DNA from: Clostridia bacterium
GTDB lineage: Bacteria > Bacillota > Clostridia > Christensenellales > Aristaeellaceae
Direction: 5' to 3'
Assembly (NCBI GenBank): GCA_024404245.1
Contig: JAKSQH010000015.1
Coordinates: 1-36,985, forward strand
DNA: 36,985 bases
Shown: in pieces, positions 3,112-25,842 of the stretch
Numbering within the stretch: position 1 is the stretch's first letter
Layout of the letters: each line of letters starts with the position of its first letter
Notes under the pieces: model-generated
Told to the model about the DNA's origin: nothing
What the model saw: the letters and a program-made list of their open reading frames with translations, nothing else
Database searches by the model: none
Position numbers and translations under genes: made by a program

Positions 3112-4569
3112 ATGAGAAAGCACACCGTTATGGCAACAGTTATTTTGCTGATATGTCTGCTTGGCATTCAGGCGTTGGGGGAGGATGTAATGTGCTTTGA
3201 GGCGGAATACGGATATTTGGGCGGAAAGACCGGTACGGGAAGTGAAAACGGCATCACTTTCGTGACCGGTTTCGCGGCTGATGATGACAGCGTTGAAATC
3301 CCCGTAACGGTTAATGAAAGCGGTTTTTATGATATTGTTTTCAATCTGCGCAGCCAGGACGGCGGCTACAAGGAAAACTATGTACTGGCGGACGGTGAAA
3401 ATGTCGGCACAGTGAAAGCGGAAGGAAAGCAATGGCAGAAACAGCGTGTTGAATATGTTTACCTCACTGCCGGTGAACACCGCGTTACCGTAAAGAAATT
3501 CTGGGGATGGATTCAGATTGATTCCTTACAGATGATTCCCTCCGCGCCTCTTCCGGATGACCTGTATGACATTGAGCCGGTACTGATCAACCCGGACGCT
3601 TCGGAGGAAGCAAGATCCCTGATGGCCTATCTGTGCGGTATTTACGGGAAAGCCGTTCTTTCGGGCCAGTATTGTGATGAGGGGATGTACGGCGCGGAGA
3701 ACGCCACAATCTGGCGGGCGACAGGCGGTAAATATCCGGCGATGCTCGGGCTGGACCTGATTGAATACAGCCCGAGCCGCGTGGCGCACGGCGCGAAAGG
3801 AAAGACGGTGGATCTCGCGCTGGATTACTGGAATCAGGGCGGAATCGTGACCTTCTGCTGGCACTGGAACGCGCCTGAAAAGTACATCACGGGTCCGTGG
3901 TATTCGGCTTTCTATACGGATTCATGCAATCTGGATCTCGCGTCCGTAATGGACGGAAGGGACCCGGAAGGTTATGACCTGCTGATGAAGGATATTGACG
4001 CGATTGCCGCTCAGCTGCTGCGGTTGAAGGAAGCGGGTGTGCCGGTACTCTGGCGTCCGCTGCATGAGGCGTCCGGAGGATGGTTCTGGTGGGGCGCCGC
4101 CGGAAATGAAGCATATCTGAAGCTGTATCGCCTTCTGTACGACCGCCTGACCGATGAGTACGGACTGAACAACCTGATCTGGGTCTGGAACGGACAGGAC
4201 GCCGCGTGGTACCCGGGCGATGAGTATGTCGATATCATCGGCGAGGACATTTATCCGGGAGAACGGGTATACACTTCGCAGGCCGCGCGCTTTATTCAGG
4301 CAATGAGATACACGGACGCGAAAAAACTGATTACGCTGAGTGAAAACGGGTGCCTGCCTGATCCGGAGCTGCTGTTCCGTGACGGGATTATCTGGAGCTA
4401 CACCGGAACCTGGGGCGGCGAGTTCGTGATGAAGAACAAAACATACAACATACTGAGTGAACAGTATACAGATGAGCAGATGCTCCGGAAATTCTACACA
4501 AGCGAAAAGGTTATCACCAGAGACGAACTGCCCGATCTGAAGAACGGCTTCGGTCTGAACAATCAATAA
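3112..4569 (+). CDS. Secreted GH26 glycoside hydrolase (beta-mannanase-like) with N-terminal CBM-like domain
   Basis: Predicted extracellular endo-acting enzyme that cuts beta-1,4-mannan or a related glycan. Residues 1-24 form a signal peptide ending at QALGED. Residues about 26-145 look like a CBM6/35-type beta-sandwich (FEAEYGYLGG start, GFYDIVFNLRS, GEHRVTVKKFWGWIQID). The rest is a GH26 barrel. The acid/base is E319 in WRPLHEASGGWFWW and the nucleophile is E411 in TLSENG, both in the clan GH-A arrangement. Further aromatic motifs, CWHWNAP and WVWNGQD, are typical. No anchor, dockerin or sortase signal is seen. GGAGG stands before the ATG. It is the first gene of a long operon of transport genes, which suggests that its products are imported. 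Some GH26 members act on beta-1,3-xylan or mixed-linkage glucan, so the substrate is inferred. Confidence 0.92.
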   Translation: MRKHTVMATVILLICLLGIQALGEDVMCFEAEYGYLGGKTGTGSENGITFVTGFAADDDSVEIPVTVNESGFYDIVFNLRSQDGGYKENYVLADGENVGTVKAEGKQWQKQRVEYVYLTAGEHRVTVKKFWGWIQIDSLQMIPSAPLPDDLYDIEPVLINPDASEEARSLMAYLCGIYGKAVLSGQYCDEGMYGAENATIWRATGGKYPAMLGLDLIEYSPSRVAHGAKGKTVDLALDYWNQGGIVTFCWHWNAPEKYITGPWYSAFYTDSCNLDLASVMDGRDPEGYDLLMKDIDAIAAQLLRLKEAGVPVLWRPLHEASGGWFWWGAAGNEAYLKLYRLLYDRLTDEYGLNNLIWVWNGQDAAWYPGDEYVDIIGEDIYPGERVYTSQAARFIQAMRYTDAKKLITLSENGCLPDPELLFRDGIIWSYTGTWGGEFVMKNKTYNILSEQYTDEQMLRKFYTSEKVITRDELPDLKNGFGLNNQ

Positions 4570-4592
4570 AAACGAAAACAGGTGGCAGGATC

Positions 4593-7500
4593 ATGAGCAG
4601 GAGTATATGTCGAATCCGTTTCGCGCTGGCGCTGATTGCAATGTGCGTGCTGGTATCATGCACGGGTTTTGCCGTGTCCGGAATGAATTATACGGATTAT
4701 GTGAACCTGGCCGGCATCTACGCGGTGGACGAAACGATTCCGGAATACGCGGATTACCTGGCAGGCACAGAAGCGGTCCGCCCCGACAAGCGGATTACGG
4801 TGGACGCGGCGAAGCCTGACAGGTATGAGGAAAACGGCGGGACAGCGGAACCGGTTGTACTTGACAACTGGGACGGGATGACCGGCGCGGCGCTGCTGAC
4901 CGGAGAAACCGGTCTTGCCGAATATACTTTTGCCGTTGAAGAAACCGGACTGTATGAACTGAATCTGGTCTATTATCCGTACGGCGGAAAAGCGTCCGAC
5001 ATTCAGCGCGCCTTTTTCCTGGACGGCCGGCTTCCGTACCGTGAACTGGCCATGATTGAGCTGAGCCGGATCTGGCGGAACGGAAACGCGGACACGCGGG
5101 AACTGATCACTGATGAAAACGGCATACCGGTAAGAAAATGGAAAAAGGACAATCAGGGAAACGACATGAAACCTGTGGCGGAGGAAACGCCCGCGTGGAT
5201 CAGCGAAACGGTTACGGATTCCAACGGGTATATCATGGCGCCTCTTTCCGTGATGCTTGAGGCAGGTGAACATACGCTGACGGTGCTGTCCCTCCGTGAA
5301 CCGGTGCTGCTGAAGGAAATCATTTTTGCCAATACGGACGGTATTCATACCTACGCGGAACGGGCGGAAGAATGGAAAGCCTCCGGGATCGCGGATACAA
5401 GCGGGATTTCCGTACGGGTGGAAGGAGAAAACGCGGCGCGTACCTCCTCCCAGATGCTGTATCCGGTGCAGGATCAGTCATCACCGTCTGTTTATCCGTC
5501 CAGCTCACGGTATCTGCTGAACAACACCATCGGCGGCAACAGCTGGCGACACGCCGGTCAGTGGATCGAATGGGAATTCGAGGTGCCGGAGAACGGCCTT
5601 TACTGCCTTTCCGTATACGGACAGCAGAACTTTGTGCGCGGAATTGATGTCAGCCGGAAAATCACGGTGGACGGACAGGTGCCGTTTGCCGAATGGGAGG
5701 CCGAACGCTTTCCGTATTCGCAAAGCTGGCAGATGAAGACCCCCGGGAATGAGGACGGCGCGTACCGGTTTCCGCTGACCGCCGGGAAGCATGTGCTGCG
5801 GATGGAAGTGGTCCTCGGGGATATGGCGGAAATTATCGGTAACGTGCAGGATTGTGTGGAGGACCTGAACCATATTTACCGTGAAGTGCTGTATCTGATC
5901 GGTGTTTCACCGGACCAGTACCGGGATTATCAGATTGAAAGAAACCTGCCGGGCCTTAAGGCGGAACTGGAGGAAGTGGACGAAAAACTCTGCCGGTCCA
6001 TTGATACGCTGCAGCAGGTGGTTGGAAACAATTCAGATAAACTGACTGTTCTGCGTACAATGCACGATCAGCTGCGTGAACTGATTGCCGATCAGGAGCG
6101 CTTTACCGAAGTGATATCTTCCTACAAGGTCAATGTCCGCGCGTGCGGTAACTGGATCACGCAGGTACTGACGCAGCCTCTGCAGATCGACCGGCTGTAT
6201 ATTCATTCGGCCGATGTGAAACCGGAAGCGGGCAACAGCGGATGGTTCAGCCGCGCGCTTTTCGAGATGAAGCGGCTCGGGAACTCCTTTATCATTGACT
6301 ACAACCGTGTGGGCAATGTGGCGGGCAGGGATTCCGATCCGGATGCCCCGGTACTGACGCTCTGGATCGGCACAGGCCGGGATCAGGCCAATGTGATCAA
6401 AAATCTGATTGATGAACGCTTTACTCCGGAGAGCGGAATCAATGTTAATGTGCAGCTGGTGGATATGAACACGCTTCTGCGCGCGACTCTGTCCGGCGAG
6501 GGACCGGATGTGGCGATTCAGGTCGCGAACACCAACGGTATTGCCGGCGCCGTGCTGAATACGGGCAATGATACGCCGGTCAATTACGGCTTGCGGAACG
6601 CGATTCTTGACCTGAAACAGTTTGACGATTTCGACGAGGTGGCGGAACGCTTCGCGGACAGCGCGCTTGTGCCGTTTTCCTTTAACGGCGCCTGCTACGC
6701 GCTGCCGGATACCATGACTTTTCCGATGATGTTCTACCGGAAGGATATACTGGCGGAAACCGGTATGGAACTGCCAAAGACATGGGATGACGTCAAGGTG
6801 GCCATGTCAGTGCTGGCTAAGAATCAGATGGAATTCGGAATGCTTCCGGGTGAACAGATCTTCGCGATGCTTCTGTTTCAGGCGGGCGGACAATACTACA
6901 CGGAAAACGGCGACGCTTCGGCGCTTGACAGCGAAACAGCCATCAATGTATTCCGCCGCTACTGCGAATACTATACCGACTATAAGCTGGACGCCGGAAC
7001 CAGTGTTGAAGAACGGTTCAGGACAGGCGAGTGCCCGATCATTATCAGTGACTATACGACCTATAACAACCTGCAGGTGTCCGCTCCGGATATCGAAGGG
7101 CTGTGGGGTTTTACCAACGTCCCCGGTACCGTGAATGAAGACGGCACTGTGTCCATTACCACCGGATCCTCCGGACTGGCGGATATCATTATGGCACAGA
7201 CACAGTATCCGGAAGAATGCTGGACGTTCCTGAAATGGTGGACGGACGCGTCAACGCAGACGCTGTACGGCCGTGAAATGGAGTCGCTGATGGGCGAGTC
7301 CGCCCGGGTCCCCACGGCGAACCTTGAAGCGCTCGGGAATCTTTCGTGGCCGGCTGCCGATTACGCGGTTCTGATGAAACAGCTGAAAGCGGTACGCGGA
7401 ATTCCTCAGGTTCCCGGCGGATATTACACGTGGCGGAATGTGAACAACGCGTTCTACACGGTTACAACACCCGCGGCATCACGCGTGGACGGAAAAACGG

Positions 7501-7613
7501 ATACGACGCCGCGTGAGGAACTGATGGACAAAATCTATTACATCAACGCGGAAATCGATTATAAGCGCACGGAATTCGGACTGCCGCTGAGAAACGCGGG
7601 AGAGGAGGAGTGA
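4593..7613 (+). CDS. Chimeric lipoprotein: two glycan-binding-like domains fused to an ABC solute-binding domain
   Basis: Surface-bound receptor of a carbohydrate ABC importer with unusual added domains. The N-terminus has a lipoprotein-like signal with LVSC at Cys23. Residues about 85-245 and 272-420 look like two beta-sandwich carbohydrate-binding modules; both carry the pattern 'GLYxLxVxY... FLDGR/VDGQ.P... AGxHxLxxxV'. A largely helical linker of about 150 residues follows. From residue 585 (VLTLWIGTGRDQ) to the end is a family 1 extracellular solute-binding domain with FTPESGINVNVQLVD, SGEGPDVAI, MMFYRKDILAETGM and the late YTWRNVNNAFY block. Ordinary solute-binding proteins have about 430 residues, so this 1006-residue product is more than twice the norm. 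It follows the GH26 gene by 23 nt and precedes its permeases by 1 nt. No frameshift is seen. Confidence 0.85.
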   Translation: MSRSICRIRFALALIAMCVLVSCTGFAVSGMNYTDYVNLAGIYAVDETIPEYADYLAGTEAVRPDKRITVDAAKPDRYEENGGTAEPVVLDNWDGMTGAALLTGETGLAEYTFAVEETGLYELNLVYYPYGGKASDIQRAFFLDGRLPYRELAMIELSRIWRNGNADTRELITDENGIPVRKWKKDNQGNDMKPVAEETPAWISETVTDSNGYIMAPLSVMLEAGEHTLTVLSLREPVLLKEIIFANTDGIHTYAERAEEWKASGIADTSGISVRVEGENAARTSSQMLYPVQDQSSPSVYPSSSRYLLNNTIGGNSWRHAGQWIEWEFEVPENGLYCLSVYGQQNFVRGIDVSRKITVDGQVPFAEWEAERFPYSQSWQMKTPGNEDGAYRFPLTAGKHVLRMEVVLGDMAEIIGNVQDCVEDLNHIYREVLYLIGVSPDQYRDYQIERNLPGLKAELEEVDEKLCRSIDTLQQVVGNNSDKLTVLRTMHDQLRELIADQERFTEVISSYKVNVRACGNWITQVLTQPLQIDRLYIHSADVKPEAGNSGWFSRALFEMKRLGNSFIIDYNRVGNVAGRDSDPDAPVLTLWIGTGRDQANVIKNLIDERFTPESGINVNVQLVDMNTLLRATLSGEGPDVAIQVANTNGIAGAVLNTGNDTPVNYGLRNAILDLKQFDDFDEVAERFADSALVPFSFNGACYALPDTMTFPMMFYRKDILAETGMELPKTWDDVKVAMSVLAKNQMEFGMLPGEQIFAMLLFQAGGQYYTENGDASALDSETAINVFRRYCEYYTDYKLDAGTSVEERFRTGECPIIISDYTTYNNLQVSAPDIEGLWGFTNVPGTVNEDGTVSITTGSSGLADIIMAQTQYPEECWTFLKWWTDASTQTLYGREMESLMGESARVPTANLEALGNLSWPAADYAVLMKQLKAVRGIPQVPGGYYTWRNVNNAFYTVTTPAASRVDGKTDTTPREELMDKIYYINAEIDYKRTEFGLPLRNAGEEE

Positions 7614-7614
7614 C

Positions 7615-8562
7615 ATGAAAGAAAAGCTTCGGGTCACCCATGCCGACGGAACCGTAACGGCTGTACGACAACGCGGACTGTGGGCGGATATCTGCAGGAA
7701 CAAGGTGTCCTACGCGCTCATCGCGCCTTACTTTATCCTGTTCTTTCTGTTTACTGTTCTGCCGGTTCTGATTTCCATCTTCTTCTCCTTCACCGATTTC
7801 AACATGCTTGAAGTGCCTGATTTTGTCGGCTGGAGAAACTATGTAAAGCTTTTGCTGGAAGATGATATTTTTATCATCGCGCTCAGGAACACGCTGCTTT
7901 TCGCGGTGATCACCGGCCCTGTCAGTTACCTGCTGTGCCTGCTTTTCGCGTGGATCATCAATGAATTCAACCCCAGGGTCAGGGCCATTCTTACCCTTAT
8001 TTTCTACGCCCCGTCCATTTGCGGAAACGCGTATATGATCTGGAACCTGATTCTGACGGGAGACCGCTACGGATTCCTGAACGGTCTGCTTCTGAAGCTG
8101 GATGTGATCTTTGAGCCTGTTCTGTGGATGCAGACCGAAAGATACGTAATGCCTGTGCTGATCATTGTACAGCTGTGGCTTTCACTCGGAACCGGCTTCC
8201 TGTCCTTTGTCGCAGGACTGCAGACCGTGGACAAAAGTATGTATGAGGCCGCGGCGATTGACGGCGTGAAAAACCGCTGGCAGGAACTGTGGTTCGTGAC
8301 TCTGCCCGCGATGAAACCGCAGCTGATGTTCGGCGCTGTGATGCAGATTACCCAGTCTTTCGCGGTGGCTGATATTTCAATCAATCTGGCCGGTAACCCG
8401 TCTGTCAATTACGCGGGAACAACCATTGTGACGCACCTGCTGGATTACGGTTCCACCCGGCTGGATATGGGCTACGCTTCGGCGATTGCCACAGTGCTGT
8501 TCCTTCTCATGGTCGGCACCAACAAGCTTGTGCAGCATCTGCTGAGAAGGGTGGGTGAGTGA
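7615..8562 (+). CDS. Carbohydrate ABC transporter permease, MalF/UgpA type
   Basis: Membrane subunit of a CUT1-type sugar importer; it forms the channel with the partner encoded next. The 315-residue product has a cytoplasmic N-terminus, a first helix (YALIAPYFILFFLFTVLPVL) and about five more. The cytoplasmic loop that touches the ATPase carries the EAA motif, here YEAAAIDGVKNRWQELWFV followed by TLPAMKPQ. The ribosome site GAGGAGG lies in the end of the upstream gene; the start is 1 nt after that gene's stop, so translation is coupled. It most likely works with the solute-binding domain of the 1006-residue lipoprotein. No ATPase gene lies nearby; a shared MsmX-type ATPase is expected. Confidence 0.93.
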   Translation: MKEKLRVTHADGTVTAVRQRGLWADICRNKVSYALIAPYFILFFLFTVLPVLISIFFSFTDFNMLEVPDFVGWRNYVKLLLEDDIFIIALRNTLLFAVITGPVSYLLCLLFAWIINEFNPRVRAILTLIFYAPSICGNAYMIWNLILTGDRYGFLNGLLLKLDVIFEPVLWMQTERYVMPVLIIVQLWLSLGTGFLSFVAGLQTVDKSMYEAAAIDGVKNRWQELWFVTLPAMKPQLMFGAVMQITQSFAVADISINLAGNPSVNYAGTTIVTHLLDYGSTRLDMGYASAIATVLFLLMVGTNKLVQHLLRRVGE

Positions 8563-8563
8563 A

Positions 8564-9730
8564 ATGGCAAAGCATCCGGTTTCTGAGGAAGCCCGCCGTG
8601 TACAGCTGGCGGAACGCGAGGAGCAACTGAAAAAGCTTCACCGCTATCAGAAAATGACCCCTCTGCAGAAAGCCCTGAAAATAGCGGGGCTGGCGATGGC
8701 GGTGGCCGCGGTTCTGCTTCTGCTGATTGACCTGATCGGTCTGGTGAATATTCACTCCACCTGCGCGACTGAAGCCGACTGGCAGGAATACCGTAGCCGT
8801 CCCTTCTGGTGGCTGGGCGGAATCAGCTTTACCGCGACAGTGATTTGCCTGGTGATCGGCCTTATTTTTTCACTGGTGCTGAATCTGCCGAGAAAAGTCA
8901 ACCGCTCGGCGGCGGGAAACGGGCTGCTGTTCTTTATCATGGGCATCTGCGGCGTGTTTATGGCGGTACCGCTGGTGATGATTTTCAATAACGCGCTGAA
9001 GCCTCTGGATGAACTGTATCAGTATCCGCCGCAGATTTTCGTGCGCAACCCCACCCTGGAGAATTTCTCGGACCTGTTTGTGCTGATGAACGGATCCTGG
9101 ATTCCTTTTTCCAGGTATATCCTCAACACAGTCATTATTACCGTGGGCGGCATGGCGGGTCACGTGATTGTGGCGTCCCTGGCTGCCTATCCGCTGGCAA
9201 AGCATAAGTTCCCCGGCAAAAAAATGCTGTTCGGAATGGTTGTGCTGTCCCTGATGTTCTCCTGGACGGTCACGCAGATTCCCCAGTACATGATTATTTC
9301 ATGGCTCGGAATCAACAACAGTTACTGGGCGCTCATCCTGCCGGCCTGGTCCTTCGGCATGGGACTGTATCTGATGAAGCAGTTCATGGAGCAGCTGCCG
9401 GATTCACTGATGGAATCCGCGAGAATTGAAGGCGCGAGCGAATGGTGTATTTTCTGGAAAATCGTGATGCCGAATGTGAAACCCGCGTGGCTCACACTGG
9501 CGATTTTCCAGTTCCAGCAGATGTGGGGAAATACCGGAAGCCTCTTCCTTCGCAACGAGGAACTGAAACCGATTCAGTTTTCGCTGCAGCAGATTGTTTC
9601 CGGCGGAGTCGCGAGGGCCGGCGCCGCGGCCGCGGTGACGTTCATTATCGCCGCGATTCCGATCCTTTTCTTCCTCCTGTGCCAGAGCAATATTCTGGAG
9701 ACCATGACGACCTCAGGTATGAAAGAATGA
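8564..9730 (+). CDS. Carbohydrate ABC transporter permease, MalG type, with N-terminal two-helix extension
   Basis: Second membrane subunit of the importer. The core (from about residue 120) has the family helices and the EAA loop ESARIEGASEWCIFWKIVMP. The 388-residue protein is about 110 longer than usual MalG-type permeases because of an N-terminal part containing a charged amphipathic start (LAEREEQLKKLHRYQKM) and two extra membrane segments (AGLAMAVAAVLLLLIDLIGL and WLGGISFTATVICLVIGLIF). I start at ATG 8564, one base after the preceding stop; a GTG at 8555 overlaps the upstream gene and would add MSE. The upstream permease is its partner. Confidence 0.9.
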   Translation: MAKHPVSEEARRVQLAEREEQLKKLHRYQKMTPLQKALKIAGLAMAVAAVLLLLIDLIGLVNIHSTCATEADWQEYRSRPFWWLGGISFTATVICLVIGLIFSLVLNLPRKVNRSAAGNGLLFFIMGICGVFMAVPLVMIFNNALKPLDELYQYPPQIFVRNPTLENFSDLFVLMNGSWIPFSRYILNTVIITVGGMAGHVIVASLAAYPLAKHKFPGKKMLFGMVVLSLMFSWTVTQIPQYMIISWLGINNSYWALILPAWSFGMGLYLMKQFMEQLPDSLMESARIEGASEWCIFWKIVMPNVKPAWLTLAIFQFQQMWGNTGSLFLRNEELKPIQFSLQQIVSGGVARAGAAAAVTFIIAAIPILFFLLCQSNILETMTTSGMKE

Positions 9731-9745
9731 CGGGAGAGACAGAAA

Positions 9746-11218
9746 ATGAAATGTAAATCCTTCCGGTTTCTGTGCTGTATCCTGCTGCTGACGGTGCTGC
9801 TTCCCGGTGCCGCGGGCGCGGACACGCTCCCTTATACGCCCTATAACTACGACTATTGGGGAAACACTGTATACTCGCCGGCCGCGTATGTACCTGAAAG
9901 GACGCTGTCCGGCGCGGACATGACGTGGAACGGTGAGCCGCTCGGAGCGTTCAGGACGCCGCAGGACCTGTTTGTTTCGGATGCCGGCGATATATATGTG
10001 GCTGACACGGGAAACAACCGGATCGTTGTGCTGGACGCGGTTACCGCTCAGGTGAAGAATGTGGTGGATTCCTATGAGCAGGACGGACAGACACGGACTT
10101 TCAGCTCGCCGTACGGGGTGGCGGTTACGGCTTCCGGAGAGCTGTATATCGCGGATGCGGACAACCACCGGATCGTGGCCCTGAAGCCGGACGGAAGCCT
10201 GCTGAAGGTGATTGAAAACCCGCGGGCGGAGGTACTGGACGATTCCTTTGTGTTCATCCCGCTGAAGGTGTGCGTCGATTACGCGGACCGTGTGTACTGC
10301 ATCGCGCGCAATATGTTTGAAGGCATTATGGTGTTTGAGTCAAACGGTGCGTTTACCGGATTCTTCGGCACGATCAATGTCAAAATCAGTTTGTGGGAGA
10401 AATTCTGGAAAAAGTTTTCCACCAAGGAAGAAAGATCCAAGCAGCAGCTGTATATCGCCACTGAGTTTACCGGAATCGATGTGGATGATGAAGGATTTGT
10501 GTACGCGTCCAATGTGGACACGGAAGGACTGCAGGCGGTGCGTCGCCTGAACCCCAGAGGACAGGACGTGATCCGTAAGGGACCGGCGCAGAACCTCGGC
10601 GGCGATCTGAATATCGGCGCGACATCATCCACCTACGGCGGGCCTTCCATGATCCGGGACGTCGCGTATCGCGGCCACGGAATCTATTCACTGCTGGATA
10701 CGAGGCGCGGGAGGATCTTCACCTATGACCATGAAGGCAATCTCCTGTATATCTTCGGCGGGTTGGGAACCCAGAACGGAACCTTCACCACGCCCGTGGC
10801 GATTGATCAGGCCGGCGATTCACTGCTTGTGCTGGATTCCAACCGGGCCACGGTATCGGTGTTCAGCGTTACCGAATACGGACACCTGATCAACGAGGCG
10901 GTCGCGCTGAGACATGACGGGGATGAAACCGAGGCGGTGGCGTTATGGCAGAAGGTTCTGGAAATCGACCAGAACAACGAGCTGGCCAATACCGGTATCG
11001 GCAAGGCGTATCTGACCGCGGGGGACGATGAGAAGGCGATGACCTACCTGAAACGCGGGATGAACCGGGAGTACTATTCCGTCGCGTTCAAGCGCTTCAG
11101 GAACGGTATGCTCAAGGATCATCTGGAACTGATCCTGACGGCGGCTGTTGTTCTGGCGGCCGGAATCATCCTGTTCGTGCGGATCCGGAACAGACGGAAA
11201 GGGGGAGGGCAGGAATGA
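9746..11218 (+). CDS. NHL-repeat beta-propeller protein with TPR and C-terminal membrane anchor
   Basis: Function unknown. A signal peptide (LLLTVLLPGAAGA) is followed by a conserved YNYDYWGN start and a beta-propeller built from NHL repeats, the clearest being GDIYVADTGNNRIVVLDA and GELYIADADNHRIVALKPDG. About residues 385-450 form a TPR-like helical pair (AVALWQKVLEIDQNNELANT, then GKAYLTAGDDEKAMTYL). One membrane helix (HLELILTAAVVLAAGIILFV) and a basic tail end the protein, so propeller and TPR are extracytoplasmic. NHL propellers commonly bind proteins, RNA or glycans. Its start lies 15 nt after the permease stop, with GGGAGA before it, and its end overlaps the Yip1-family gene by 4 nt. 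I recall this gene order from Paenibacillus-type loci, but the job is undescribed as far as I know. Confidence 0.8.
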   Translation: MKCKSFRFLCCILLLTVLLPGAAGADTLPYTPYNYDYWGNTVYSPAAYVPERTLSGADMTWNGEPLGAFRTPQDLFVSDAGDIYVADTGNNRIVVLDAVTAQVKNVVDSYEQDGQTRTFSSPYGVAVTASGELYIADADNHRIVALKPDGSLLKVIENPRAEVLDDSFVFIPLKVCVDYADRVYCIARNMFEGIMVFESNGAFTGFFGTINVKISLWEKFWKKFSTKEERSKQQLYIATEFTGIDVDDEGFVYASNVDTEGLQAVRRLNPRGQDVIRKGPAQNLGGDLNIGATSSTYGGPSMIRDVAYRGHGIYSLLDTRRGRIFTYDHEGNLLYIFGGLGTQNGTFTTPVAIDQAGDSLLVLDSNRATVSVFSVTEYGHLINEAVALRHDGDETEAVALWQKVLEIDQNNELANTGIGKAYLTAGDDEKAMTYLKRGMNREYYSVAFKRFRNGMLKDHLELILTAAVVLAAGIILFVRIRNRRKGGGQE

Positions 11219-11847
11219 AAAACATGTTCGGCCGTGAGAAATGGCAGCATTTCTTCTATACACTCTCTCACCCCGCGGACGGCTTTTACTGGATCAGGCA
11301 TCAGGAAAAGGGAAGCGTCGGTATTGCCCTGCTGATGGTGGTGCTGTTTTCACTCAGCTTTTCACTGAACCGGGCTTACGCGAGCTTCGTTGTCAACAAT
11401 GTGAATCCGCGTGATGTAAACGGACTGACGGAGCTGATCGGCGTTATCCTGCTGTTTACCGTGCTGTGCGTTGGCAACTGGTCAGTGACCTGCCTCATGG
11501 GCGGCGAAGGCAGGATGAAGGATATCGTGATCGCGGTCGGATACGCGTTCGGCCCGATCGCGCTGACGTTTGCCGCCGCGACGCTGATCAGCCAGGCCAT
11601 TGCGGAGAATGAGACCGCGTTCTATTCCATTGTGATGCTGATCGGTATCGGCTACGGGCTGGCGGTAATGCTGATCGGCATAATGACAGTGCACAACTAT
11701 ACGCTGGGGAAGACGCTGCTGACGCTTCTGCTGACCGTGCTGGCTGTGTTCATTATCATCTTCCTCGGAATGCTGGTCGCGGACCTGATCGGCAAAGTGG
11801 TGAATTTCTTCAGCAGTATCTATACCGAGCTTGTATACCGGATGTAA
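11215..11847 (+). CDS. Yip1-family membrane protein
   Basis: Small polytopic membrane protein of 210 residues with about five helices and a cytoplasmic start (GREKWQHFFYTLSHPADGFY, WIRHQEKGS), the usual opening of bacterial Yip1-domain proteins. Helices include VGIALLMVVLFSLSFSLNRA, LIGVILLFTVLCVGNWSVTC, FGPIALTFAAATLI, IVMLIGIGYGLAVMLIGIM and LLTLLLTVLAVFIIIFLGML. The start overlaps the NHL gene stop (ATGA), so the two products are probably made in step and may form a complex. The biochemical role of bacterial Yip1-family proteins is not established. A transporter accessory or assembly role is inference from the gene order only. Confidence 0.8.
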   Translation: MKNMFGREKWQHFFYTLSHPADGFYWIRHQEKGSVGIALLMVVLFSLSFSLNRAYASFVVNNVNPRDVNGLTELIGVILLFTVLCVGNWSVTCLMGGEGRMKDIVIAVGYAFGPIALTFAAATLISQAIAENETAFYSIVMLIGIGYGLAVMLIGIMTVHNYTLGKTLLTLLLTVLAVFIIIFLGMLVADLIGKVVNFFSSIYTELVYRM

Positions 11848-11862
11848 GGGAGGAGAAGGGCA

Positions 11863-14508
11863 ATGAAAAAGAATAAAGCCGGCTCTTTGACTTCCGTACA
11901 GGTCAGCGGACTGACTGAAAAGGAAAAACAGGATGCTTTTTTCAAAAAGGTCCTGAGAATCGGCCTGGCATCGCTGGCGGGCATCGCGCTGATCACGGTC
12001 GGATACTTCCTTGTGCGGTTTGAGTTTTACGGTGAATACCGTGAAGACTTCAGAAATGAATATGCCGCTGAAAACGGAACAGCTTTTGTACCCCTGGAAG
12101 ACAGTGAAAACAGCGTTCCCGGAATGAAACTGGCCGCGCAGAATGAAACGCTGAAGCTCTACGCGGATCCGGATACCGGTGAGGTGGCGGTTTACGACCT
12201 CAGAAGCGGAAAAACATTCCGCTCCAATCCGGAAAACGCCGACCGGGATCCGATCGCGAACAAAACCAATAAAGCATACCTGAAGTCCCAACTGGTGATC
12301 GATTACTACAACGCGAACCGGAACAGCGGAAGCTATGATTCATGGAGCATGAGCACAGACCGCGGACAGATGACCTGCGAGGCCATCGAAAACGGCGTCC
12401 GGTTTGTATACGGCCTGGGTGAAATCGCGGAAATCAAGTATTATGTGCCGTTCTTCCTGAGCCAGGACTGGTACGATGCCGTGAAGGCAAAAGCAACGGA
12501 AAAGGACGCCAAGAATCTGGCGCGCCTCTATCCGTCACAGAATGCCGAGGGGCTGTGGGTACTGACGGAAATGGCCCGGAATGACAACAGCAAAAAGAAA
12601 AAAGCGGACGCGGCGCTGCAGCAGGCCGGCTTTACCGAAGCGGATTATTACGAGATGCAGGAACTCGGGGGCGTGGAGACCGCGGAATCCCTGTTTTTCA
12701 CGGTAAGCGTGGATTATCGCCTGAACGGGGACGGACTTGATGTTTCCGTGCCGACCGACAGAATCGAGGAAAAAGGCGGCGGAAAGATCTACCGGATCCA
12801 GCTGCTGAGATTCATGGCAGCCGCCGGAACGGACGAATCCGGATACTTTGTTGTGCCGGACGGGTGCGGCGCCCTGATCAGATTCAATAACGGGAAAAAC
12901 AGTGTGCCGGTTTATTCACAGTATGTATACGGCCTTGACCCGCTCAGCGCGGACTACACCGTGACACAGAACACCGAAAACGCGTGTTTCCCGTTCTTCG
13001 GCATCTGCCGCGAAGACAGCACGGTGCTTGTATCGGTTGAACGCGGTTCCGCGCTCTGCAGCTTCAATGCCGATGTCGCCGGAAGAACAAACAGCTGGAA
13101 TGTCTGCCAGCCGGTGTTCACGGTGCGGGGTACCGAAAACCTGAGCATGTTCGGTGTGGACGGAACCAGCGCGGATGTACCGGTAATCGAAAACAATCTC
13201 GTGCTGGAGAACCTGACTGTACGGTACGCCTTCCCGGACGGGGAATACCTCGGGTATGCCGGAGTCGCGTCATACTGGCGCGAAAGGATGCTCCGTGAGG
13301 GCAGACTGACTGCCGCGGAAACCGGAAAAGACCTGCCGTTTTTCTGTGATGTGATCGGCGGTGTGAAAACGGCAAAGCATGTTCTCGGTTTCAAATACCT
13401 GGCTGTGGAACCGATGACAACGTTTGCCGAAACCGGTGAAATGGTCAGGGAGATGACTGAGCTCGGCATCGCGAGACCGGTGATTAACCTGCAGGGCTGG
13501 TTCAACGGGGGATTCTATCATGACGCGCCCGGCGGTATATGGGTGCTGAAGGAGCTCGGCGGCGATAAGGGCCTGAAGAAGCTTGAAAAGGATGTAGCTG
13601 CCGTGAACGGTGAACTGTTTACGGATGTCGCGTTCCAGAAGGTCAGCTATATCGCGAAGCATTATATGCCGGATATGGAGAGCTCCCGTTACTACGGCGC
13701 CGGTTATTCCGTGCGGCTGGGGCAGGTCAGCCCGGTGACACTGCGGCAGACCTCATCCCTCGGGTTTGATGAAACAGTATACGATCTGCTGAGCCCCAAA
13801 TTCATTCCCCGGTATGTGGGTGATTATCTGAAGTCGCTTGCGGGAAAAACCGGAGCCGGCATCTCACTGCGTGATCTGGGAAACGAACTTCATTCCGATA
13901 AACGCAGGACCAATATGATCAGCCGTGAACAGGCGAAGGATATTGTGGAAGCATCCCTCGACCGCATGAAGGAAACCGGCCGCGGAATGATGATATCGGG
14001 CGGAAATGATTACGCGCTGGCAAGGACCGATTACGTGATCAACGCCCCGATGCAGGCGACCGTGTACCATATTGTGGATGAGGAAATACCGCTTTTCCAG
14101 ATGATCGCGCACGGCTGCGTGGAGTATGCAGGAACGCAGATGAACCTGAATTCCGGCGATGAGCGTGAGCAGCTTCTGAAGGCTGTTGAATACGGCGCGT
14201 CATGCCATTACGTGTTCACGGATCAGGATGCCACACAGATGAAGTATACCGGGATGAACATGTATTACTCCACCGCGTTTGACATCTGGAAAGAGAAAGC
14301 CGCCGAAAACTGGCAATTCCTTAACACGGCGCTGTCACCGGTTTCGGGCGCGTTCATGACGGGACATGAGAAGATAAACGAAGATCTCGTTCATGTGACA
14401 TATTCCAACGGGATTTCCGTCTGGATCAATTACGGACCGGATGACGTAACGGCGGACGGAATCACCGTACCCGCGGAAAGCTACGCGCTGGGAGGTGAAG
14501 GAGTATGA
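11863..14508 (+). CDS. DUF5696-family membrane-anchored protein
   Basis: Large (881 residues) protein of unknown function, signature member of this type of locus. A cytoplasmic N-terminus (about 30 residues) leads to one membrane helix at about 32-50 (IGLASLAGIALITVGYFLV); the rest is predicted outside. Motifs seen include YADPDTGEVAVYDLRSGKTF, VPDGCGALIRFNNGKNSVPV and VYSQYVYGLDPL, then a long mixed alpha/beta part with the DVIGGVKTAKHVLGFKYLAV and PVINLQGWFNGGF segments that resembles a glycosidase-like barrel. If so it may process imported or captured glycan at the membrane; this is inference. Ribosome site GGAGGAG precedes the ATG. Its stop overlaps the next permease start by 4 nt, pointing to a physical link with that transporter. 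Confidence 0.75.
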   Translation: MKKNKAGSLTSVQVSGLTEKEKQDAFFKKVLRIGLASLAGIALITVGYFLVRFEFYGEYREDFRNEYAAENGTAFVPLEDSENSVPGMKLAAQNETLKLYADPDTGEVAVYDLRSGKTFRSNPENADRDPIANKTNKAYLKSQLVIDYYNANRNSGSYDSWSMSTDRGQMTCEAIENGVRFVYGLGEIAEIKYYVPFFLSQDWYDAVKAKATEKDAKNLARLYPSQNAEGLWVLTEMARNDNSKKKKADAALQQAGFTEADYYEMQELGGVETAESLFFTVSVDYRLNGDGLDVSVPTDRIEEKGGGKIYRIQLLRFMAAAGTDESGYFVVPDGCGALIRFNNGKNSVPVYSQYVYGLDPLSADYTVTQNTENACFPFFGICREDSTVLVSVERGSALCSFNADVAGRTNSWNVCQPVFTVRGTENLSMFGVDGTSADVPVIENNLVLENLTVRYAFPDGEYLGYAGVASYWRERMLREGRLTAAETGKDLPFFCDVIGGVKTAKHVLGFKYLAVEPMTTFAETGEMVREMTELGIARPVINLQGWFNGGFYHDAPGGIWVLKELGGDKGLKKLEKDVAAVNGELFTDVAFQKVSYIAKHYMPDMESSRYYGAGYSVRLGQVSPVTLRQTSSLGFDETVYDLLSPKFIPRYVGDYLKSLAGKTGAGISLRDLGNELHSDKRRTNMISREQAKDIVEASLDRMKETGRGMMISGGNDYALARTDYVINAPMQATVYHIVDEEIPLFQMIAHGCVEYAGTQMNLNSGDEREQLLKAVEYGASCHYVFTDQDATQMKYTGMNMYYSTAFDIWKEKAAENWQFLNTALSPVSGAFMTGHEKINEDLVHVTYSNGISVWINYGPDDVTADGITVPAESYALGGEGV

Positions 14509-15398
14509 GCAGAAGACGCAAGGCTCTGAACGGTTACCTGTTCATCCTGCCCTGGCTGATCGGTTTCATCTGGTTTTATGTAATCAGTATCTGGATGACG
14601 CTGAAGTTTTCCATGTCCGAGCTCAAGGTGCTGCCGACCGGCGGATACGAAACCGCGTTTGTCGGTTTTGTGAACTATATCAAGGCGTTTACGGCTCACG
14701 CCTCGTTCAGGCAGACGCTGGTCACCTCGGTGGGAAATATGATTATCGATGTTCCGCTGATCATATTTTTCAGCCTGTTTATGGCACTGCTCCTGAACAG
14801 AAAGTTCAAAGGCCGGGGCCTGGTACGGGCTATATTCTTCCTGCCGGTTATTCTTTCATCGGGCGCGATCACGGACGCACTGAACCGGAGTCAGGCGCTG
14901 ATGAACGGCGGACTTTCCCAGGTTTCCGGAGAACTGAACTCGGCGGTTTCCGGAGGAATGTCAGTCGCGTACTATATCGGCCTGTTTGAGAATCTGGCTG
15001 TTCCGACAAGCGTACTGGAGTATCTGGTTGACGCGATTAACCGCATCAGCACCATAGTCAGTGCTTCCGGTGTGCAGATCATTATTTTCATCGCGGCTCT
15101 GCAGGCGATTCCACCGGCCTTGTATGAGGTGAGCAGAATCGAGGGCGCGACCGGGTATGAAACCTTCTGGAAAGTGACATTCCCGATGATCATGCCGCAT
15201 ATCATTACCAACCTGGTGTACACCGTCATCCGGCGCTTCGCGGAGAGCGAACTGGTCAACCTGGCATACACAACCACGTTCACTGATCTGAATTACGGCC
15301 TGGGCGCGGCCTTCAGCGTGGTTTCCACACTGGTGGTGCTTGTTGTTCTCGCGGTCACCGTGATCCCGATTCAGAAACACACGTTCTACTATAACTGA
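14505..15398 (+). CDS. Carbohydrate ABC transporter permease, MalF type (second pair)
   Basis: Membrane subunit of a second importer in the same operon. The 297 residues hold about six helices, starting with LNGYLFILPWLIGFIWFYVI. The EAA loop reads YEVSRIEGATGYETFWKVTF, followed by PMIMPHI. A long periplasm-side loop (about residues 125-175) is helical. The gene overlaps the DUF5696 gene by 4 nt and is followed 18 nt later by its partner. Either solute-binding protein of the operon, the 455-residue protein encoded at 18222 being nearest downstream, could feed it. Confidence 0.92.
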   Translation: MSRRRKALNGYLFILPWLIGFIWFYVISIWMTLKFSMSELKVLPTGGYETAFVGFVNYIKAFTAHASFRQTLVTSVGNMIIDVPLIIFFSLFMALLLNRKFKGRGLVRAIFFLPVILSSGAITDALNRSQALMNGGLSQVSGELNSAVSGGMSVAYYIGLFENLAVPTSVLEYLVDAINRISTIVSASGVQIIIFIAALQAIPPALYEVSRIEGATGYETFWKVTFPMIMPHIITNLVYTVIRRFAESELVNLAYTTTFTDLNYGLGAAFSVVSTLVVLVVLAVTVIPIQKHTFYYN

Positions 15399-15416
15399 GG
15401 AAAGGGGGAGACAAAC

Positions 15417-16376
15417 ATGAATCTGACACGGAAGATGAATGAAATCCGGGAAAGCAATGTCTATTTCGACCGCGTCAACCGTGCCCGGAACGGAACAAAG
15501 GAACTGATCATGAAACTGTTCCGCTTCATCCTCATTGCCGGTGTGAGCTACGTGATTCTCGCGCCGATGATCGGGATCCTGACAAGCTCCTTCTTTTCGG
15601 ACAGTGACCGGTACAACCCCATTGTTTTCACCGTTCCGATCAATCCGACACTTGAACGCTACGCGACGGCGGCGGAGTATCTGGATTACGGGAAGACCCT
15701 GGGAACAACGGTTGTATATACGCTGCTGCTGACGCTGATTCAGGTATTTGTCTGCTCCATGGTCGGCTACGGATTCGCGCGGTTTGAGTTCAAACTGAAA
15801 AAGATCCTTTTCGCCTGTGTCATCCTGATGATCGTGCTGCCGGTACATACGGTCATGCTGCCGCTGTACGTGACTTTCCGCAACTTCGGTATCGGCGGGA
15901 GTACAACCAATCTGATGGGCACATGGTGGCCGGTAACCATTATGAGCTGTCTCGGAACGGGCCTGAGCAGCGGGCTGTATATTTACATTTTCAATCAGTT
16001 CTTCAGAGGATTGCCAAAAGAAATCGAGGAAGCCGCGTTTGTGGACGGTGCCGGCACCTGGTATACGTATTTCAGGATCATGCTGGTGAACGCGATGCCC
16101 GCGCTTATCACAGTTACCGTGTTTTCAATTGTATGGCAGTACAACGATACGTTCTACGCGAGTTTGTTCAATGTGCCGACGGATACCCTGCTGAGCAAGC
16201 GTATTTCCACGTTGATGGACACGATCTCCAATGTGAAGAAGATCTATGATCCGAGCCTGCTCACCCTGTATCTGAATGCCGGAATCGTGATGATTGCCGC
16301 GCCGCTTGTGCTTATCTACGTTGTGCTTCAGAAGCAGTTTATCGAGGGTGTGGAACGAAGCGGCATTGTCGGATGA
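15417..16376 (+). CDS. Carbohydrate ABC transporter permease, MalG type (second pair)
   Basis: Partner of the preceding permease. It has 319 residues, a 45-residue charged cytoplasmic N-terminus (NEIRESNVYFDRVNRARNGT) and about six helices. The EAA loop reads EEAAFVDGAGTWYTYFRIML, typical of the group except that the usual P after 'ML' is replaced (VNAMPAL). GGGGGAG lies before the start. It ends the permease part of the operon; an 80-nt gap with a hairpin separates it from the two secreted binding proteins. Confidence 0.92.
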   Translation: MNLTRKMNEIRESNVYFDRVNRARNGTKELIMKLFRFILIAGVSYVILAPMIGILTSSFFSDSDRYNPIVFTVPINPTLERYATAAEYLDYGKTLGTTVVYTLLLTLIQVFVCSMVGYGFARFEFKLKKILFACVILMIVLPVHTVMLPLYVTFRNFGIGGSTTNLMGTWWPVTIMSCLGTGLSSGLYIYIFNQFFRGLPKEIEEAAFVDGAGTWYTYFRIMLVNAMPALITVTVFSIVWQYNDTFYASLFNVPTDTLLSKRISTLMDTISNVKKIYDPSLLTLYLNAGIVMIAAPLVLIYVVLQKQFIEGVERSGIVG

Positions 16377-16391
16377 CCCGCGCGGACTGAG

Positions 16392-16417
16392 GTTATTCGG
16401 GGCAGACGCCCCATAAC
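16392..16417 (+). promoter_or_regulatory. Intra-operon hairpin between permease and binding-protein genes
   Basis: Arms gttat and ataac flank a perfect GGGGC/GCCCC stem with loop agac and a 2-nt bulge. There is no T-run, so full termination is unlikely. Such hairpins often stabilise or process polycistronic mRNA so that binding proteins are made in excess; that use here is inference. A second small repeat, tttccc-aaa-gggaaa, follows at about 16423-16437. Confidence 0.5.
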
Positions 16418-16455
16418 AATTATTTCCCAAAGGGAAAATCAAAGGAGGATTCACT

Positions 16456-18189
16456 GTGAAAAAGATCCTGGTAGTTCTCTTGGCACTCATGCTCGTGATG
16501 AGTGTGAACGCCGTCTGCGGTGAAGAAGCCGCGACAGTCATCGATTTTGAAGATGACTGCTTCGGATTCGCGGCCGTGGAAAAGCTGGTCGGCAATGCCG
16601 GCGACGCTGAAATCTCCATCGGAGAATTCAACGGCTCCAAGGCTCTGAAGGTGACAGTGCCGGCAAAGGTGCCCTATGTGACCGTCGGCCTGGATGCCCT
16701 TGCCGGTGAAAAAGCCGGCGATGTCCGTACGATTAAGATGGACATCGGTCTGGATAACGCGGAGGACGGAAAATTCTACGCCGTATCCGGAAACCTGATC
16801 ATGTATTACGGAACGGAAGACACTGCCGAAAAGACCGGCTGGTCCGTGTACATGGCCAAGAAAAATCCTTACACCGTAACCGCGACGCTGTCCGATGCGG
16901 CTGCTTTTGTCGCCGGCGCGAACAACCGTGTAACGGTAAGCAAGGAAACGGACAATTACGTAACCAAGAAAAACGGCACCCCTGTGACATTCTATATTGA
17001 CAATATCAGCCTGCTGGATGCCGAAGGAAACGCGCTGCCGCTGAACAGCAAGGGTGTGTACGAAGCTCCTGCCGCCACCGGCAAGGACCTGACAAACCTG
17101 TATGCTCTTTCCAACGCGGTTGAATTCCCCGGATTCTCCGTTTCCGCCGGCGCCTGGGCGCAGAACGGACTGGATATGCCGCAGGAAATCATTGACGCGC
17201 TGGTGCCCGGCTCCGTGGTCGAAATCGAGTTCGAAAGCGCCTCCGGAGATATGTGGATCGTAATGCCCGATTCCGCGGCCGGCTGGATGCGCGTGGGCGG
17301 ATGCGGAAACGGAACGGACTATGTGAATAATTCGAAGAGCATCGCTCAGGTTCCCTATGAACTGATTGCTCAGTTCTGCGGTGAGGATAAGGCAACCTGG
17401 GGCGCCCGTATGCAGTGCGAAGCCAGCGGCGACTGGCAGGTCTATTCCGTGAAGGTGGGAACGCTGAACAAGATCCCCGCGCTTAAGGGATTTGTTGAAT
17501 TCCCCGGATTCTCCACTTCCGCCGGCGCCTGGGCGCAGGACGGACTGGAAATGCCGCAGGAAACCATTGACGCTCTGGTTCCCGGCAGCGCCGTGGATGT
17601 TGAATTCGAAAGCGCGAGCGGCGATATGTGGATCGTGATGCCCGACTCCGCCGCGGGCTGGATGCGCGTCGGCCAGGGCACGGACATCATCGCAGGCGGA
17701 CACGCCTATATCACCTATGAACAGATTGCCGAACTCTGCGGTGAGGATAAGGCGACCTGGGGCGCCCGTATGCAGTGCGAAGCCAGCGGCGACTGGCAGG
17801 TCTATTCCGTGAAGGTGGGAACGCTGAACAAGATCCCCGCGCTTAAGGGATTTGTTGAATTCCCCGGATTCTCCACTTCCGCCGGCGCCTGGGCGCAGGA
17901 CGGACTGGAAATGCCGCAGGAAATCATTGACGCTCTGGTTCCCGGCTCTGTGATTGATGTGGAGTTTGAGAGCGCCGGCGGCGATATGTGGATTGTTATG
18001 CCTGATTCCGCCGCGGGCTGGATGCGCGTCGGTCAGGGTACTGACATTATTGACGGCGGACATGCCTATATCACTTATGAACAGATTGCTGAGCTCTGCG
18101 GCGAGGATAAGGCGACCTGGGGCGCCCGCATGCAGTGCGAAGCCGGCAGCGACTGGCAGGTATACTCTGTGAAGATCGGTCAGCGCTGA
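16456..18189 (+). CDS. Secreted protein with three tandem repeats, putative glycan-binding
   Basis: Residues 1-22 form a signal peptide (ending NAVCGEE). Residues about 25-195 look like a jelly-roll carbohydrate-binding domain: VIDFEDDCFGF at the start, FNGSKALKVTV, and FYIDNISLLDAEG at the end. Three repeats follow at about 222-346, 347-466 and 467-577. Each holds VEFPGFS.SAGAWAQ.GL, GDMWIVMPDSAAGWMRVG, Y..IA..CGEDKATWGARMQ and DWQVYSVKVG, with conserved Trp and Met that could line a binding face. No catalytic motif, anchor or dockerin is seen. I do not recognise a named family for the repeat. It lies in the operon between transport genes and a solute-binding protein, with GGAGG before its GTG-ATG-like start (GTGAAAAAG at 16456). 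Binding of the GH26 substrate is inferred. Confidence 0.7.
   Translation: MKKILVVLLALMLVMSVNAVCGEEAATVIDFEDDCFGFAAVEKLVGNAGDAEISIGEFNGSKALKVTVPAKVPYVTVGLDALAGEKAGDVRTIKMDIGLDNAEDGKFYAVSGNLIMYYGTEDTAEKTGWSVYMAKKNPYTVTATLSDAAAFVAGANNRVTVSKETDNYVTKKNGTPVTFYIDNISLLDAEGNALPLNSKGVYEAPAATGKDLTNLYALSNAVEFPGFSVSAGAWAQNGLDMPQEIIDALVPGSVVEIEFESASGDMWIVMPDSAAGWMRVGGCGNGTDYVNNSKSIAQVPYELIAQFCGEDKATWGARMQCEASGDWQVYSVKVGTLNKIPALKGFVEFPGFSTSAGAWAQDGLEMPQETIDALVPGSAVDVEFESASGDMWIVMPDSAAGWMRVGQGTDIIAGGHAYITYEQIAELCGEDKATWGARMQCEASGDWQVYSVKVGTLNKIPALKGFVEFPGFSTSAGAWAQDGLEMPQEIIDALVPGSVIDVEFESAGGDMWIVMPDSAAGWMRVGQGTDIIDGGHAYITYEQIAELCGEDKATWGARMQCEAGSDWQVYSVKIGQR
17395..17563 (+). repeat. 169-bp exact direct repeat, copy 1 (copy 2 at 17755-17923)
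   Basis: Positions 17395-17563 and 17755-17923 are identical, 360 nt apart, spanning the junction of repeat units 1/2 and 2/3 of the secreted protein gene. Single differences at 17394/17754 and 17564/17924 bound it. The sequence around these blocks is only moderately conserved. Confidence 0.9.
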
Positions 18190-18221
18190 TGACGGAAAAA
18201 TAGGAAAGGAGATATTACATT

Positions 18222-19589
18222 ATGAAAAAGTTTGTCGCTTTACTGCTGGCTGTTCTGATGGTTGCCTCCGCCACGCTGTGCCTGGCTGAAGTGGACCCGA
18301 ACCGCCGTACGATCACGATCGGTCTCTGGTGGGATATCTATTATGACAGCACGCATGAATCCCTTGAGGATGATCCTTCCTATTCCGGTACCGAAGCTGA
18401 CGAGCTCCGGTTCAATGTGGTGAAGGAAATCGAAGACAAATACAACGTCAACATCGAATTTGTGAACCTGACCTATACCGGTGTTCAGGATTCCATCAAC
18501 ACCTCCATCCTGGCGGGCACCCCTGACTGCGATGTGTATCTGGTGGAACTGGGCTGGGGTATTCCCGCGGCCATGAAGGGCTATTTTACCGACCTGCATA
18601 CCATTCTGCCCGAAGACAGCGATATCTTCACAAAGCAGACGGTCCTCTCCGGAACAACCGTGGCCGGCGGGGAAGAAGTGTATTTCTTCAATACCATCGG
18701 TATGAACAACACCTATCCCCTGATGTTCAACCTGCAGATGCTTGAGGATGCCAACCTGGAAGACCCGCGTGACCTGTATGAACGCGGTGAATGGACCTGG
18801 GACAAGTTCATCGAATACTGCCAGGCGCTGACCAAAGACATCGACGGCGACGGAGTGAATGACCAGTACGGATTCTGCGGCTATGTCAATGATGTGATGA
18901 ACAACCTCACGCTGTCCAACGGATGCACAATCGCCAGCGGCGAAACCGAACAGTTCTCATCCGAGGCGGTCGGTGAATGCTTCCAGCTGGTTCAGGACAT
19001 GTACACAAAGTACAAAGTGTGTGTACCTTATGACGAGAACTATGATTCCGCCAGTGATTCCATGCGTGTGGCCTTCATGAACGGCAATGTCGGCTTCAGC
19101 GTCGGCGCGGTCTGGATCCTGAACGGCCAGGGCGCTTATTCACCCAACAGTGAAGCGCCGCTGGAATTTGACACGGTATTCGTTCCGTGGCCTGTAGGAC
19201 CTCACGGTAACAAGGACACCAACGCGCTGATGCAGGTCGGTTCCGGCAACAGCTATTACGCGATTCCCGTCGGCGTGGAAGACCCCGCTCTGGTATACAA
19301 TGTATTCTATGATTACCAGAACTATTTCCACGATGACACTTCCATCCGTGATGACGAGGAAACCCTGTGGTGGTGGATCTCCGAAACCGGCAAGGAAGAA
19401 GAGTATCAGCGCGCGAACTTTGATGTTCAGCTGCTGTGCCTGACCCGTCCTCAGGTTGACCTGTATGAAGCGCTGGGCGTGGATGTTGACTGGCTGCCTC
19501 TCCTGAAGGGTGAGGTAACAGTGGCTCAGTTCCAGGAAACCTACCGTCAGCAGTATCAGGACGGTCTGGACATTCTGTTTGGCAAATAA
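18222..19589 (+). CDS. Extracellular solute-binding protein, family 1
   Basis: Sugar-binding receptor of an ABC importer, last gene of the operon. The signal peptide (LLLAVLMVASATLCLAEVD) lacks a clean lipobox, although a Cys is present at residue 20. The mature 430 residues are standard length. Family features include the first strand RTITIGLWWD, EIEDKYNVNIEFVNLTYTGV, the hinge segment TPDCDVYLVELGW, and ERGEWTWDKFIEYCQALTKD plus IDGDGVNDQYGFCGY, the classic segment of this family. GGAAAGGAG stands before the ATG. It probably feeds the second permease pair (14505-16376), since the first pair has its own fused receptor; this is inference. Confidence 0.92.
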   Translation: MKKFVALLLAVLMVASATLCLAEVDPNRRTITIGLWWDIYYDSTHESLEDDPSYSGTEADELRFNVVKEIEDKYNVNIEFVNLTYTGVQDSINTSILAGTPDCDVYLVELGWGIPAAMKGYFTDLHTILPEDSDIFTKQTVLSGTTVAGGEEVYFFNTIGMNNTYPLMFNLQMLEDANLEDPRDLYERGEWTWDKFIEYCQALTKDIDGDGVNDQYGFCGYVNDVMNNLTLSNGCTIASGETEQFSSEAVGECFQLVQDMYTKYKVCVPYDENYDSASDSMRVAFMNGNVGFSVGAVWILNGQGAYSPNSEAPLEFDTVFVPWPVGPHGNKDTNALMQVGSGNSYYAIPVGVEDPALVYNVFYDYQNYFHDDTSIRDDEETLWWWISETGKEEEYQRANFDVQLLCLTRPQVDLYEALGVDVDWLPLLKGEVTVAQFQETYRQQYQDGLDILFGK

Positions 19590-19709
19590 TGCTTAAATGA
19601 CACGGGTGGGCCGCGGCCGGAACCCCGCGGGTGACGGCCGCAGCCCGATAACAGACACGCGCGCTACAGGAAACGGTCTGTTGATTTCTGTGCTGATGGA
19701 TGTGAAAAA
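19590..19709. other. GC-rich spacer with potential stem-loop, before the LacI-type gene
   Basis: The stretch 19602-19650 is very GC-rich, with complementary blocks around ccgcggccgg and cggccgcag, and could fold. It lacks a T-run. No convincing promoter for the next gene was seen, so that gene may be co-transcribed. Confidence 0.35.
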
Positions 19710-22244: not shown

Positions 22245-22269
22245 CTGCTCAAAGCTGGGGGTCTGAGTG

Positions 22270-24816: not shown

Positions 24817-24837
24817 ACAGGGAAGGAGGAAAAACCA

Positions 24838-25764: not shown

Positions 25765-25842
25765 CAGCCCTTATCCCCGCGCGCCTGCCCCGGCCAAGCA
25801 AAAAACCGGGAAGCGATATATTATGAAGGAGGTATCCCAACC

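Follow-up and report, generated by a model that had tools for sequence, protein, structure and literature searches.

The window analysed here is a stretch of 36,985 nucleotides from a Clostridia bacterium (contig JAKSQH010000015.1 of assembly GCA_024404245.1, our contig C7; assembly of 1.98 Mb, rated 65% complete) that carries a one-directional run of eleven genes on the forward strand (positions 3112-19589), in which genes for an NHL-TPR protein, a Yip1-family protein and a DUF5696 protein lie between two pairs of MalF/MalG-type permease genes. We rate it somewhat above even that this locus represents a conserved glycan-import cassette, present three times in its own genome and working by the mechanism proposed below, and the three proteins (the trio) probably form an undescribed helper complex for the uptake of plant-fibre sugars. 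The cassette core consists of the trio genes and the downstream permease pair B, usually joined by a second importer made up of a large solute-binding protein (SBPbig) and permease pair A. The genes of the run, and the LacI-type gene that continues it in the same direction, are as follows:

3112..4569, + strand: GH26 enzyme with N-terminal CBM35 domain and hydrophobic stretch (Pfam Glyco_hydro_26, 258 bits; CBM_35, 54.1 bits)
4593..7613, + strand: SBPbig, a receptor of 1006 amino acids with a solute-binding protein as its C-terminal part
7615..8562, + strand: permease A1, MalF-like (BPD_transp_1, 37.1 bits)
8555..9730, + strand: permease A2, MalG-like (BPD_transp_1, 54.2 bits)
9746..11218, + strand: NHL-TPR protein (Pfam NHL, 62.6 bits, cut-off 20; TPR below or near its cut-off)
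11215..11847, + strand: Yip1-family protein (Pfam Yip1, PF04893, 52.5 bits, curated cut-off 28.6)
11863..14508, + strand: DUF5696 protein (Pfam PF18952, 606.8 bits, curated cut-off 25.6)
14505..15398, + strand: permease B1 (BPD_transp_1, 40.9 bits)
15417..16376, + strand: permease B2 (BPD_transp_1, 55.8 bits)
16456..18189, + strand: protein with three CBM65 domains (Pfam CBM65_1, three stretches) and an N-terminal hydrophobic stretch
18222..19589, + strand: SBP2, a second solute-binding protein (Pfam SBP_bac_8, 53.5 bits)
19710..20717, + strand: LacI-family regulator (Pfam LacI and Peripla_BP_3)

A preliminary description of this DNA had counted ten genes in the run, one too few. The genes that it named all lie on the forward strand where it had placed them, with Pfam backing each family name, and the tight packing that it reported is exact: the NHL-TPR and Yip1 genes overlap by 4 nucleotides, 15 nucleotides separate Yip1 from DUF5696, and DUF5696 overlaps permease B1 by another 4.

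Co-occurrence and gene order of the cassette

We searched 398 genomes of the window's phylum (taken to be Bacillota) separately with DUF5696, Yip1-subtype and NHL-TPR profiles. The best three candidates per genome were scored for DUF5696 and NHL-TPR and the best seven for Yip1, so that weaker true matches could escape and copy numbers are lower bounds. Full-length DUF5696 proteins (E < 1e-90) were found in 41/398 genomes, own genome counted, and 11 further genomes gave short, weak matches only, two of them barely above the curated cut-off. Profile A5 located the Yip1 subtype (E <= 7.5e-26) in the identical 41 genomes, with weak matches (E 1.8e-8 to 9.5e-7) in four others. The NHL-TPR profile (E <= 3.5e-61) again marked these 41 genomes plus one more, G223, while weaker matches in 35 further genomes (E 3.6e-18 to 9.3e-11) covered part of the propeller. 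No full-length match to any trio member was detected in 356/398 genomes. The Yip1 family at large occurs in 7 of 14 control genomes, and because it is more widespread as a whole our claim of co-occurrence is limited to the subtype. Within the window's own genome, three DUF5696, three Yip1, three NHL-TPR and three SBPbig proteins are all encoded on the same three contigs. Five other genomes (G058, G150, G037, G124 and G077) hold at least seven Yip1-subtype matches each, and strong multiplication of the cassette is possible there.

Gene order was compared at 133 loci around DUF5696, comprising the window, 52 loci fetched by place and 80 named relatives, the latter being the best 80 of at least 535, which weights the set towards close relatives of the query. 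The search had given 66 near-full-length DUF5696 rows; of the 63 that belong to other genomes, 50 were covered and 13 left out. Two pairs of loci are duplicates (L036 = L119 and L042 = L167), leaving 131 distinct loci on which the counts of gene order are based; residue counts, enzyme labels, gap lengths, trees and ATPase motif counts still contain both. NHL-TPR (within 4 kb) and Yip1 (within 2.5 kb) lie upstream of DUF5696 on the same strand at all 117 loci with enough contig (118/118 before removal of duplicates), and a permease of the pair B type follows within 4.5 kb downstream, likewise on the same strand, in 123/123 (125/125 before removal). The distance from the DUF5696 stop to the permease start has a median of -4 nucleotides over the 128 of 133 loci at which a pair B permease is the next gene recognised, and is at most 30 nucleotides in 119/128. 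Moreover, NHL-TPR and Yip1 are successive, non-overlapping parts of a single open reading frame of 672 to 835 amino acids at 28/117 loci, among them the third cassette copy of the own genome (L034). Among 102 full windows, permease pair A is found upstream of DUF5696 in 92 and SBPbig on either side of it in 97. Named hosts include Paenibacillus, Cohnella, Thermobacillus, Amphibacillus, Halalkalibacter and Lederbergia as well as metagenome-assembled genomes of Lachnospiraceae and Oscillospiraceae. A search for a phage origin of the cassette gave 21 pattern matches in viral contigs, none of which was confirmed as a relative.

These results support the view that NHL-TPR, Yip1 and DUF5696 form a fixed unit adjoining permeases of the MalF/MalG type. 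The preliminary description had argued that the tight coupling speaks against chance, which the 398-genome co-occurrence and the locus counts bear out, and had named as its own refutation that the three families occur mostly apart, which is not what we see for these subfamilies. An envelope or cell-wall function that merely rides with hemicellulose loci and is unrelated to transport would suit three proteins that are all predicted to be membrane-tied, and the literature yielded no function test of these subfamilies. However, the invariable downstream permease gene and its short spacing argue against it, and a general wall function is unlikely because most genomes carry no full-length trio member; we regard this alternative as highly improbable.

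Predicted architecture of the trio and of SBPbig

The DUF5696 protein has a single predicted N-terminal membrane helix followed by a GH129-like domain at about residues 88 to 881. Its predicted structure combines an N-terminal beta-sandwich with a barrel, as in GH129, which ranked first in the structure comparison. The structure check proposed in the preliminary description thus assigns DUF5696 the predicted fold of a sugar-cutting enzyme. The GH129 profile PF11308 matched neither the window's DUF5696 protein (at E 0.01) nor anything in the own genome (at E 0.001). We take the catalytic pair of the GH129 enzyme NagBb to be Asp435 and Glu478. Asp435 corresponds to Asp486 of ZgGH129. The presumed counterparts in DUF5696, placed by strand order and spacing and not by residue-level superposition, are D671 (Asp at 103/133 loci) and N715 (Asn at 124/133). 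NagBb (5wzn) and ZgGH129/DagB (5opq; PMC5698469) share about 15% identity with DUF5696, which, unlike these glycosidases, has a predicted N-terminal membrane anchor, an Asn at the presumed acid/base position and a place in transport loci.

DUF5696 could nevertheless be catalytically active, as a membrane-anchored alpha-glycosidase removing alpha-linked side chains (e.g., galactose from mannan or side groups from xylan) shortly before import, with NHL-TPR and Yip1 holding it in place. The GH129 fold would fit such an activity, but the Asn at the presumed acid/base position, the replacement of D671 at 30/133 loci and the failure of PF11308 to match the protein make this unlikely. Weak PF18952 matches in other proteins, for which no Pfam scan was made, had hinted at a GH13- or GH36-like activity, which we rejected since they span short stretches only and the structure ranks GH129 first. 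The sole PF11308 match among 299 genomes of the phylum is a protein of 881 amino acids (G297 contig 17, L087) with a weak DUF5696 match near its C-terminus. Mapping the active site via this lone GH129 protein was abandoned, as the homology is weak (E 1.1e-4, probability 56%) and the barrel alignment unreliable.

The NHL-TPR protein has hydrophobic stretches at residues 1-19 (signal-type) and 460-478, the latter its one predicted membrane helix, at the C-terminus. Five such stretches in the Yip1 protein correspond to five predicted membrane helices, and a sequence search of the PDB gave no match for it at E 1. All members of the trio are accordingly predicted to be tied to the membrane. SBPbig comprises beta-sandwiches at about 67-250 and 270-410, a helical bundle at 411-526 and a solute-binding domain at about 585-1000. 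Fold searches matched the solute-binding half only; for the N-terminal half there was no PDB match, and the top Pfam family, GH115_C, stayed below its cut-off (E 0.18 for the window protein, 0.024 for that of locus L096).

Glycan classes, energy supply and proposed function

Representatives of sequence clusters neighbouring the cassettes include GH26 (in the window), GH113, GH130, GH2 mannosidase, GH5 and GH9 enzymes, and others belong to GH10, GH43, GH30, GH3, GH28, GH31, GH42, GH29 and GH95. We labelled loci by these clusters, with one representative each scanned against Pfam in addition to the window and L034, so that a label stands for an enzyme family and not for a tested substrate; GH43 and GH130 include members with other substrates. 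Labels were obtained for 71/133 loci, 44 of them mannan-type, 27 xylan-type and none both, and the 62 unlabelled loci were not counted. On the DUF5696 tree the two labels need 2 changes, compared to 16-27 in 200 shuffles. They also need 2 changes on the NHL-TPR, SBPbig, four-permease and SBP2 trees and 3 on the Yip1 tree. This segregation by clade makes the cassette look like a general import module specialised by glycan. The window, whose GH26 enzyme is by sequence a probable mannanase type, groups with mostly Clostridia loci bearing mannan-type enzymes, many of which have a CBM65 protein too; the three-CBM65 protein belongs to a neighbour cluster found at 15/133 loci, the window included. 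Reading the cassette as devoted to mannan alone did not hold up, as other copies adjoin GH10, GH43, GH30, GH28 and further enzymes. Of the other two copies in the own genome, L034 adjoins a GH43 gene, and no enzyme was identified at L033, where a single neighbour was scanned.

All four permeases score above the BPD_transp_1 cut-off, giving two per importer as CUT1 systems require, and sugar-type extracellular solute-binding proteins as in CUT1 importers are encoded at the locus. A motif search detected an ATPase gene inside 0/133 cassettes and in the flank of 7/133 loci. The own genome, 65% complete as assembled, encodes five MalK-type (OB_MalK) proteins, none of them on the three contigs that carry cassettes. 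The cassette importers would be served by a shared MalK/MsmX-type ATPase from elsewhere. MsmK is described as a shared ATPase for ATP-binding cassette (ABC) importers in PMC8579813. CUT1 importers with MsmK or MsmX (PMC12838199 and PMC8579813) resemble the cassette in combining a solute-binding protein with two permeases, lacking an ATPase gene at the locus and sometimes having two solute-binding proteins, and they import plant oligosaccharides, as the cassette would. One example, athe_0595-0598 of Anaerocellum bescii, encodes a GH5 endoglucanase, a heterodimeric transmembrane domain and two solute-binding proteins (PMC12838199). It differs from the cassette, in which two permease pairs flank three extra membrane proteins, and we rejected this cello-oligosaccharide locus as a cassette member given that the accessible text of PMC12838199 names no NHL-TPR, Yip1 or DUF5696 protein.

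In Bacillus YknWXYZ, too, the gene for a Yip1-family protein accompanies those of an ABC transporter. According to PMC4887032, this protein, YknW, modulates how the ABC complex is assembled, and YknYZ resembles MacB, with a dedicated ATPase, YknY, as well as a membrane fusion protein. The cassette, unlike this system, has CUT1-type importers, no ATPase gene inside by motif and an NHL-TPR protein. The preliminary description's interpretation needs amending in two further points: Yip1 has an ABC-exporter precedent in YknW, and DUF5696 has a predicted GH129 fold. Our literature search, mainly of non-subscription papers, found none that names DUF5696. Papers on Yip1, NHL and sugar transport, on Caldicellulosiruptor transport and on GH129 described no such cassette by title or start of abstract; subscription papers were mostly outside this search, and a description elsewhere is possible. 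The main text of a Paenibacillus JDR-2 transcriptome paper (PMC4765114) contains neither "NHL" nor "Yip1".

We propose that the Yip1 protein, joined or fused to an extracellular NHL-TPR part, would sit by permease pair B and organise the importer in the membrane, while the membrane-anchored GH129-like domain of DUF5696 may bind or orient oligosaccharide chains at the importer mouth. Chains would reach the two pairs of permeases by way of SBPbig and SBP2, and the common ATPase would serve both pairs. Each paralogous cassette would serve one class of plant glycan, in the window presumably beta-mannan. The proposal builds directly on gene order, co-occurrence, gene fusion, the folds predicted for DUF5696 and for the solute-binding half of SBPbig, and the segregation of enzyme families by clade; from these we infer a physical complex, its topology, glycan binding and hand-over, the substrate and ATPase sharing.

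Several points weigh against this explanation. Gene order is no proof of a physical complex, and the segregation with substrate type extends to every gene of the cassette, so that it does not mark out DUF5696 in particular as the component facing the substrate. G223 encodes a 284-amino-acid NHL-TPR fragment, starting at the contig end, on an 8.5-kb contig with neither Yip1 nor DUF5696. Finally, 5/102 full windows have no SBPbig nearby (their four genomes carry it elsewhere), so that the two-importer arrangement is not obligate.

The trio might instead sense flux or glycans on the importers and signal to a regulator. Like TPRs, NHL propellers are interaction modules, LacI-type genes adjoin the window's cassette, and a LacI neighbour cluster, so named because its sequences resemble the LacI genes of the window, occurs at 15 loci; the LacI gene at 19710..20717 possibly regulates the operon. 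Yet Pfam finds no signalling domain in the three proteins, and a LacI regulator normally detects sugars inside the cell on its own, leaving a sensor role quite improbable.

ABC sugar importers are usually regarded as complete with a receptor, two permeases and an ATPase. Under the import explanation that we favour, this cassette would add an undescribed accessory set to ABC sugar import and is possibly a distinct machine. Sus-type systems of Bacteroidetes are surface machines that couple glycan capture with import, a coupling that the cassette would share; the genes of 3112-20717 gave no Pfam match to TonB-dependent SusC or lipoprotein SusD. A Gram-positive counterpart, in which a Yip1-NHL-TPR scaffold and a tethered pseudoglycosidase DUF5696 join two ABC importers in a stable surface complex that has diversified into mannan, xylan and other paralogues across Bacillota, is a more speculative extension that we put forward tentatively, at less than even odds. 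If the import function is correct, an unrecognised machine takes part in the uptake of plant-fibre oligosaccharides by Paenibacillus, Clostridia and their relatives. The analysis itself supplies DUF5696 with a predicted fold and a genomic context and ties the Yip1 subtype to sugar import, with direct tests feasible in culturable laboratory strains of Paenibacillus.

Surroundings of the operon in the window

An Rfam scan of the window gave no match at gathering score. Promoter-like sites number 12 (shuffle mean 13.0, sd 3.8) and terminator-like sites 23 (16.8, sd 4.0); neither count was used as evidence of internal promoters or terminators. A Mutator-type transposase is encoded at 145-1389, and a RelB-type antitoxin and YafQ-type toxin pair (2185-2738) lies directly upstream of the operon. 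A putative further sugar importer at 22267-27531, behind another LacI gene (21188-22186), comprises an 849-amino-acid permease that carries a long extension at its N-terminus, another permease and, as a possible binding protein, a protein of 562 amino acids that matched no Pfam family. On the reverse strand, an open frame of 895 amino acids (27773-30460) has a signal-type start and contains repeated segments as well as a stretch rich in Thr, Pro and Ala; it has no Pfam match either. VTC-domain, DUF4956 and Cthe_2159-type carbohydrate-binding proteins are encoded consecutively at 30845-34327, followed at 34890-36373 by a DUF6577 protein and a nucleotidyl transferase of the AbiEii type, which may together make up a type IV toxin-antitoxin pair.
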